From Salinispirillum sp. LH 10-3-1 (GTDB lineage Bacteria > Pseudomonadota > Gammaproteobacteria > Pseudomonadales > Natronospirillaceae): a stretch of 64,000 nt of DNA. Positions 27,590 to 30,733 of this stretch are shown one piece after another. A program made the translations under genes and the position numbers. The notes under the pieces are model-generated. The model was not told the origin of the DNA, searched no databases, and worked only from the letters and a program-made list of their open reading frames with translations. Each line of letters starts with the position of its first letter. Positions within the stretch are counted from its first letter, which is position 1. The DNA lies in assembly GCF_030643825.1 (NCBI RefSeq), contig NZ_CP101717.1, forward strand, positions 2,873,673 to 2,937,672, written 5' to 3'.

Positions 27590-28537
27590 CTAAAAATGCT
27601 TTTCCAGGCACTTCAAGACATCAGTCGTCAGATTGGGCGAAAGAGTATCAAAGCTCGTCAAGTTGCGCCAGCCCCGCAACCACGTAAGCTGACGTTTCGC
27701 CAGTTGTCGTGTTGCTGCCAAGCCTTGGGCACGCATGTCATCCCATGAAATATTCTGTGCTATATATTCCCACATTTGACGATATCCCACACAGCGAATT
27801 GACGTGTGATTGACATCGAGATCGCCACGTTCGAACAGGGCTCGCACCTCCTGCTCAAAACCCTGCGCCAACATGAGGTCAAAGCGTTGCTCAATTCGCC
27901 CGTGCAATACGGCACGCTCTTCAGGCCGCACCGCCAACTGCACAACGGGCCATGGAAATTCTGGGGCAACCTCACCGGCGGGCAACATGGGGGTTTTGTC
28001 ACGCCATAACGCACTCATGGGGCGACCGGTGCTCAAGCACACTTCAAGGGCGCGCACCACGCGCTGACGATTATTAGGATGTACGCCTGCGGCGGCTTCT
28101 GGATCAAGTCGAGCCAGCTCGGCATGCAACACCGCCCACCCTTCGTGTTCACCACGCGCCTCTAGGCGCGCACGCAGTTCGGGCTGTGCGGCCGGCAGCT
28201 CCGCCATATCGGACAGCAAGCCACGAAAATACAGCATGGTGCCACCCGCCAGAATGGGTTGTTTGCCACGGGCGATGATGTCTGCAATCAATGCCATGGC
28301 GTCGTCGCGAAAGGCACTGACGGAATAGCTTTCTATAGGGTCAATAATATCCAGCAGGTGGTGCGGAATGCCCTGCTGTTCTTCGGCAGTGGGCTTGGCC
28401 GTGCCAATATCCATTCCGCGATAGACCAGCGCCGAATCGACAGAGACGACCTCGCCATCGAGCCGTTTTGCCAGCTCAACCGCCAGCCCGGTTTTTCCCG
28501 ATGCCGTGGGGCCCATGAGGCATATAATCGGTGTCAT
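27590..28537 (-). CDS. miaA: tRNA dimethylallyltransferase MiaA
   Basis: 315 aa. P-loop CLMGPTASGKTGLAVELA, then VSVDSALVYRGMDIGTAKP and PILAGGTMLYFRGLL, are typical. It adds an isopentenyl group to A37 of tRNAs reading UNN codons. hfq follows after a 218-bp gap, which may contain the separate hfq promoter known in E. coli. Upstream, miaA is cut off from mutL by a 282-bp gap holding an inverted-repeat element. Confidence 0.97.
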   Translation of the reverse strand: MTPIICLMGPTASGKTGLAVELAKRLDGEVVSVDSALVYRGMDIGTAKPTAEEQQGIPHHLLDIIDPIESYSVSAFRDDAMALIADIIARGKQPILAGGTMLYFRGLLSDMAELPAAQPELRARLEARGEHEGWAVLHAELARLDPEAAAGVHPNNRQRVVRALEVCLSTGRPMSALWRDKTPMLPAGEVAPEFPWPVVQLAVRPEERAVLHGRIEQRFDLMLAQGFEQEVRALFERGDLDVNHTSIRCVGYRQMWEYIAQNISWDDMRAQGLAATRQLAKRQLTWLRGWRNLTSFDTLSPNLTTDVLKCLEKHF

Positions 28538-28656
28538 TGCATTCGGTGTCCTTAGTCAACGGATGGCATTGCCAGATACATATTAGGCAATACTGACGAT
28601 GCGCGCTCAGCAATCAATAAGTGTTAGTCGTGCCTGCCATATCGTGGGCTATCGGT

Positions 28657-28775
28657 CATTGAAAAAAGGCGACCAGGTGTGACAGAGGGCCTCTGCGCAC
28701 AGGACGTGCGCAGCGGAGCCCCCATCGACGGGTTTATGGCGTCCCGATGTCACACCTGGTCGCCTTTTTTCAATG
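28657..28775. repeat. 119-bp element with 28-bp perfect inverted repeats (MITE-like or bidirectional terminator)
   Basis: 28657-28684 and 28748-28775 are exact reverse complements. The 63-base centre holds a second hairpin (CTGCGCAC, five-base loop, GTGCGCAG). Each outer arm carries a run of six A or T flanking GGCGACC/GGTCGCC, so transcripts from either direction would end in a stem followed by U residues. It lies between mutL and miaA. The GC-rich centre resembles an extragenic repeat type I recall from marine gammaproteobacteria, but this cannot be verified here. Confidence 0.75.

Positions 28776-30725
<1,950 letters not shown>

Positions 30726-30733
<8 letters not shown>

Follow-up and report, generated by a model that had tools for sequence, protein, structure and literature searches.

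The element at positions 28657-28775 of the window, that is, of the whole 64,000-nt stretch of contig NZ_CP101717.1 of Salinispirillum sp. LH 10-3-1 that was analysed, may well be one copy of a dispersed, TwoAYGGAY-type repeat of structured RNA, the GGA loops of which would be putative docking sites for CsrA/RsmA, a reading that we hold with about even confidence. The repeat family has a conserved three-way junction, in which two hairpins with GGA loops (P2 and P3) stand on a long stem (P1), and the strand that carries the GGA loops is referred to below as the GGA strand.

The element at the mutL-miaA junction

The features of the element and of its surroundings are as follows.

28657..28775, + strand: whole element; +, the strand antisense to mutL and miaA, is the GGA strand; the covariance model R1 matches at 28666-28766 (82.8 bits, E 7.8e-19)
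28657..28684, + strand: 5′ arm of the P1 stem, 28 bp, mismatch-free, its sequence individual to the window copy
28748..28775, + strand: 3′ arm of the P1 stem, carrying T6
28693..28713, + strand: P2 hairpin, GGA-type, 8-bp stem, loop AGGAC, C-G closing pair (read from the sequence)
28718..28740, + strand: P3 hairpin, GCC-CCC, loop ATCGAC (GGA lost), GGG, 5-base bulge TTTAT, GGC (read from the sequence, with the family consensus and pair counts)
28649..28653, + strand: CTATC motif immediately outside the P1 5′ foot, where CTRYC is enriched in other copies
28776..28826, no strand: 7-bp tandem repeat GCTCAGT, 7.3 units, lying between the element and the mutL stop
28820..30733, − strand: mutL, matched in 21 of 21 relatives at 53-77% identity
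27590..28537, − strand: miaA, downstream of mutL in the 21 relatives

The preliminary description had placed a 28-bp perfect inverted repeat around a structured core with an 8-bp hairpin between the two genes, and both observations hold, as the arms pair over 28 of 28 bp (33 nt at 94% when extended), and the P2 hairpin, CTGCGCAC-AGGAC-GTGCGCAG, stands at 28693-28713 within the 63 bases between the 28-bp arms. The A6 and T6 runs, described there as lying next to a GC block, are indeed present beside GGCGACC and GGTCGCC. When folded as RNA, the element reaches a predicted -86.8 kcal/mol on the + strand and -81.9 kcal/mol on the − strand, against shuffle means of -43.2 and -41.6 (z = -11.1 and -10.7), and 0 of 200 shuffles equalled it on either strand. 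Within the window, the 23-mer AAAAAAGGCGACCAGGTGTGACA of the P1 5′ arm matched only the two arms of the element itself at up to three mismatches. This copy keeps the P2 loop AGGAC and has a P3 loop, ATCGAC, without GGA; neither loop equals AYGGAY, one of the two is a CsrA-type hairpin loop, and a single putative CsrA site may perhaps be kept.

MutL was detected in 22 of 22 genomes of the family, and in the 21 relatives, for which the miaA starts are estimates from tblastn, the two genes overlap or lie at most 24 nt apart, with 55 nt in one. The gap in the own genome measures 282 nt and holds the element together with the 7-bp tandem repeat, which bears out the earlier remark that the element interrupts the usual mutL-miaA continuity (at most 55 nt in 21 of 21 relatives). 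R1 gave no match at the mutL-miaA loci of the 21 family relatives, and these short, element-free gaps argue that the element is apparently a lineage-specific arrival in a compact junction. As to a target-site duplication, the 0-55 nt gaps of the relatives give nothing alignable with the junction. The GCTCAGT repeat is found directly at the mutL stop, and the junctions of the 21 relatives are too short to hold it.

A dispersed family with a common core and individual arms

Searched at the DNA level, the own genome (one contig of 3.47 Mb) has matches to the core of the window copy at four other places, and the copies found here and in relatives have the same core between arms of differing sequence. 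The covariance model R1 was built from an alignment (A1) of 56 out of 96 listed copies; these had themselves been preselected at an arm score of at least 14, which makes the P1 counts of A1 circular, and part of its rows have P2 wrongly aligned (75% paired). Match numbers given for R1 are lower bounds, as no more than 150 candidates were scored per search, or 22 in the survey of the class. At E ≤0.01 the own genome has at least 43 model matches, of which 39 span the full length, and this substantiates the earlier idea of an extragenic repeat; the outcome that had been named as refuting it, an element present only at this site, did not occur, the genome-wide search having returned at least 42 other places. 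Matches were also found in at least 31 of 185 genomes of the class and at least 16 of the 22 family genomes (0 to at least 150 matches each), and the 17 carriers picked from the 26-mer matches hold at least 6 to at least 149 matches per genome. This exact 26-mer, GAGCCCCCATGGACGGGTTTAYGGCG, occurs in at least 120 genome-contig stretches, the carriers among the matches listed being Stenotrophomonas, Xanthomonas, Lysobacter, Serratia, Alteromonas, Haliea, Microbulbifer, Nitrincola, Marinobacter and Saccharospirillum. For E. coli, blastn with the queries tried found 0 copies. Under the words used, openly licensed papers searched at listing level gave no description of the repeat family, and the letters of its core were unmatched.

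The P1 sequence varies between copies and its pairing persists, over a mean length of 30.6 bp (range 19-51, 34 own copies). The P2 stem is variable; its loop is closed by C-G and contains GGA in 30 of 30 own copies, and GGA is found in the P2 loop of 111 of 113 copies in a wider set. P3 follows the plan GCC-NNN, loop A-N-GGA-N, N′N′N′, a 5-base bulge (UUUAC, UUCAC, CUUGC or UUUAU) and GGC. Its loop reads A.GGA. in 109 of the 113 copies in which the P3 pairs are intact (a pattern that includes ATGGAC had fetched many of these), and likewise in 20 of 30 own copies, three of the others, the window copy included, being without GGA and seven unparsed. Among orthologues each of the four bases is seen at the N position of this loop, with A and GGA mostly kept, and the stem changes in concert (CCC/GGG, UCC/GGA, UAC/GUA, and also GCC/GGC to GCU/AGC). 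Outside the 5′ foot, CTRYC is found in 10 of 27 own copies against 2.8 in shuffles, in 7 of 16 copies of other relatives against 2.2, and in 63 of 123 copies of a collection set dominated by Stenotrophomonas against 18.7. Some copies carry extra hairpins inside their loops, several with GGA loops on unrelated stems; by eye, the inserted module of L219 has no GGA loop. Composite copies were seen at L003, L007, L122, L146 and G000:691640-691779, where an extra module made up of a GGA-loop hairpin, a piece reading CCCTTCGGG and a second GGA-loop hairpin follows the P3 loop.

The suggestion of a MITE is unsupported in the own genome, as MITEs have terminal repeats that are common to the copies, whereas here it is the core that the copies have in common, each between arms of its own sequence. 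In Stenotrophomonas and in the Xanthomonas genus, copies within one genome are partly alike in their arms too, and an older MITE-like spread is still conceivable there.

Strand preference, placement and rival readings

P1 mismatches, counted with only Watson-Crick pairs scored as matching, are distributed unevenly between the G-U and A-C classes. Among the non-duplicate copies of the collection (116 copies examined, 105 at an arm score of at least 10, 15 duplicates), the mismatches read on the GGA strand were 122 G-U against 11 A-C. For an orthologue test, 35 genomes were searched in the genus of Xanthomonas codiaei, and a locus was used at which the two members of an element pair lie on opposite DNA strands. 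The two alignments, A2 and A3, take up 49 of 57 R1 matches, L259 (twice), L258 (twice), L319 and the second matches of L239, L254 and L261 being out; in sorting, three rows were shifted to A3 and one to A2, and A3 omits L244 and L255, near or full duplicates of L243 and L251. On the GGA strand, G-U stood against A-C at 31:3 in A2 (23 rows) and 62:6 in A3 (24 rows), or, by pair column, the better proxy for events, at 12:3 and 10:6. Double-changed cells numbered 29 against 6.1 in A2 and 30 against 10.7 in A3, more than in all 500 shuffles and in every slid control; further pair types, one of five measures, were equalled by 13 of 500 (A2) and 31 of 500 (A3) shuffles.

Because G-U outnumber A-C mismatches on the GGA strand, this one folded strand seems to be under selection. 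A mutational bias tied to the DNA strand would favour opposite mismatch classes in the two pair members, and therefore the same G-U excess in both members argues against strand-biased mutation. The bias is weak in the own genome (34 G-U against 18 A-C) and missing in its minus-strand copies (5 against 6), which counts against a strong strand claim for this genome alone.

The copies also have a preferred orientation to each other. Neighbouring copies within 400 bp of each other point their GGA strands outward in 11 of 11 cases in the own genome and, among the matches listed, in 17 of 17 cases in two S. maltophilia genomes, for which 59 of 123 and 44 of 110 matches were used; across the three genomes the total is 28 of 28, its S. 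maltophilia part holding among the matches listed. Tandem neighbours occur elsewhere, namely two + copies in Alteromonas L116 and two in G006. Gene calls made with a simple codon model leave all 33 own copies examined outside genes. Minus-strand genes are commoner than plus-strand ones in the copy-bearing regions of the own genome, at small numbers.

A mobile single-stranded DNA element of the REP/REPIN-like sort, with copies spread by an HUH (Y1) transposase or the like, and with any RNA effect being secondary, is an unlikely alternative that has several observations in its favour. Under it, the targets of the enzyme, recognised as single-stranded DNA, would be the CTRYC foot and the hairpin of the GGA strand, and the enriched 5′-foot motif and the inverted pairs of copies, like REPINs, would be in keeping. 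Single-stranded DNA, in which G-T wobble is tolerated too, would likewise favour G-T over A-C. Further in line with mobility are the R1 matches that jump inside one genus (5 to at least 150; 0 to 48), the patchy presence in at least 31 of the 185 genomes, the lineage-specific arrival at mutL-miaA and, in the Xanthomonas genus, the recurrence of an element pair as a unit of ~340 bp at ~77% identity. However, Y1_Tnp (PF01797), present in 23 of the 31 element-positive genomes, is missing in the other 8, five of which are at least 94% complete and one of which has 20 element matches, and a Y1/REP transposase as a required partner is thus unsupported. Against mobility there also stand the 0 blastn matches of the copies tried in 72,556 plasmids and 50,697 phages, and the compensatory changes that are kept in place among orthologues, unlike what a dead insertion would show. 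A search for an empty site with target duplication gave no clean case, the sequence between the anchors being unrelated at the element-free loci L266, L317 and L318 of the Xanthomonas genus.

We give a low probability, too, to a structured mRNA 3′-end element, the strand of which would be co-transcribed with the upstream gene and would protect or end its mRNA. In 16 of 33 own copies, what lies ahead of the GGA strand is a gene's 3′ end, 16-55 nt off, and S. maltophilia has a locus where an intrinsic terminator between convergent genes has a copy on each side; the Yersinia sRNA Ysr224, moreover, resembles the TCC strand (39 bits, gathering 70). YPAL of Yersinia reportedly inserts just after stop codons, and a role as an mRNA 3′-end hairpin is said to have been proposed for it. 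Such an mRNA would, however, contain the TCC strand, where A-C instead of G-U would be the mismatches tolerated, and in the other 17 of the 33 own copies the GGA strand aims at the start of a co-oriented gene, 10-511 nt off. Strains differ at the S. maltophilia locus in arms, inserted modules and lost copies. At one orthologous place in S. maltophilia (L207-L224), some strains swap the whole element, with both arms different, and others have extra hairpin modules nested in the loops; at Stenotrophomonas L226, L227 and L229, R1 has no match and inspection by eye shows a hairpin resembling a terminator.

Very improbable is a two-way intrinsic terminator specific to mutL-miaA, for which the A6/T6 runs beside a G+C-rich stem and the very stable fold on both strands could speak, but which has against it the 53 bases between the extended arms, the rarity of a T4 run at the 3′ foot (2 of 34 own copies), and the at least 42 further R1 matches in the own genome, which rule out a locus-specific terminator as a general reading. 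A scan for a terminator consensus, with loops of 3-8 allowed, found none, and the terminator reading of the element is doubtful. Recruitment as a terminator, as the preliminary description had it, is accordingly no property of the family, given the rarity of T4, and survives for this copy, which the A6/T6 runs could also make a weak two-way terminator.

Known RNA kinds and the putative CsrA connection

Judged by its consensus structure, the repeat family may well be of the known TwoAYGGAY-type RNA kind. TwoAYGGAY (RF01731) is listed as probably an RNA and probably neither cis-regulatory nor a switch, from the human gut, gamma-Proteobacteria and Clostridiales, in the entries on it in Weinberg 2010 (PMC2864571). 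It resembles the repeat in that its Rfam consensus combines a long outer stem with two AYGGAY-loop hairpins, while the repeat has a conserved 5-base P3 bulge and A-N-GGA-N loops, in which GGA is nearly universal and the second base is at times not Y, and in addition shows outward pairs and at least 150 scored matches in the top genome. One copy of the own genome (L184:1483-1618) scores 43.5 bits over the whole model, with gathering at 43, and is the only one at gathering among 20 loci; none reached it among the 12, 12 and 18 loci of other scans, and another copy scored 32.0 bits. The window copy gave no match to RF01731 up to E 5 within 28400-29000 and is below gathering for every Rfam model. 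The best-scoring eukaryotic microRNA models in cmscan all stayed below gathering, and their scores are taken as a by-product of the long hairpin.

The clan CL00106 holds TwoAYGGAY together with rsmX and RsmW. Its CsrB/RsmX/Y/Z sponges are like the repeat in having multiple GGA-loop hairpins with C-G-closed penta- or hexaloops, but are one sRNA gene each, whereas the repeat has dozens of dispersed copies, a long P1 and, as far as the promoter scores go, no promoter signal. Ysr224 (RF02770) has a consensus that resembles the TCC strand of the repeat core, but all its matches seen are below threshold, the best with 39 of 70 bits, and lie on the strand opposite to the one that is seemingly selected; the Yersinia family may be annotated on that opposite strand. 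A Ysr224-like match of 39 bits on the TCC strand is found at L185:1483-1582 (+). REP palindromes of the GTAG/CGTC type are likewise extragenic hairpin repeats, often in inverted pairs, with stems of 5-13 bp and a conserved tag according to the passages on them in PMC3733652; unlike these, the repeat has a stem of ~30 bp with a sequence individual to each copy, and on stem length membership among them is out. YPAL, of 168-169 nt, is intergenic and is listed among MITEs (PMC2267715, PMC3733652), and by description only it is like the repeat in length class, intergenic place and strong stem-loop; compared in this way, it may be of the same kind.

The consensus of RsmE/CsrA is given as CANGGANG (PMC6849547) and as ANGGAN with variable N positions (PMC7652899), and in the portions of both sources that concern it the sites sit in penta- or hexaloops. 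The conserved loop positions of the repeat are those of this consensus, the family having the ANGGAN loops or C-G-closed pentaloops in hairpins that are looked for in CsrA targets, and its loops look like predicted CsrA binding sites. The own genome encodes CsrA, as do 28 of the 31 element-positive genomes (those three that lack it are 67-88% complete) and 24 of the 24 that are at least 90% complete. Since CsrA is near-universal in the class (159 of 185 genomes, and 122 of 138 fairly complete element-negatives), its co-occurrence with the element says little.

As the most likely reading, we propose that the GGA strand would act at the RNA level, as part of transcripts running out of the intergenic region either way, candidates being read-through, antisense or leader RNA. 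The two GGA loops would dock a CsrA/RsmA dimer, the long P1 stem could be a barrier or an RNase III substrate, and the outcome would be control of the RNA that runs into the neighbouring gene, along with a small CsrA sponge effect. The promoter-like score upstream of the GGA strand, 6.81, is no better than that of the other strand (6.91), downstream (6.77) or shuffles (6.96), and a dedicated promoter upstream of this strand thus gave no signal. CsrA leaves the conserved P3 bulge and the flanks unexplained.

A wider and distinctly speculative reading, which we consider improbable, is that dozens to more than 100 copies per gammaproteobacterial genome would border intergenic regions as outward RNA fire-breaks that recruit CsrA/RsmA, the regulator policing read-through and antisense RNA and the copies forming a distributed CsrA sponge; within that reading, RNase III or Rho would probably be recruited as well.

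In conclusion, the repeat points to a selected strand and to CsrA/RsmA as its candidate partner, and the likenesses suggest that a single abundant gammaproteobacterial element lies behind the little-studied Rfam motif TwoAYGGAY, Ysr224 and possibly YPAL. If CsrA binds dozens of such sites per genome, the CsrA regulon and the estimates of free CsrA would need revision.
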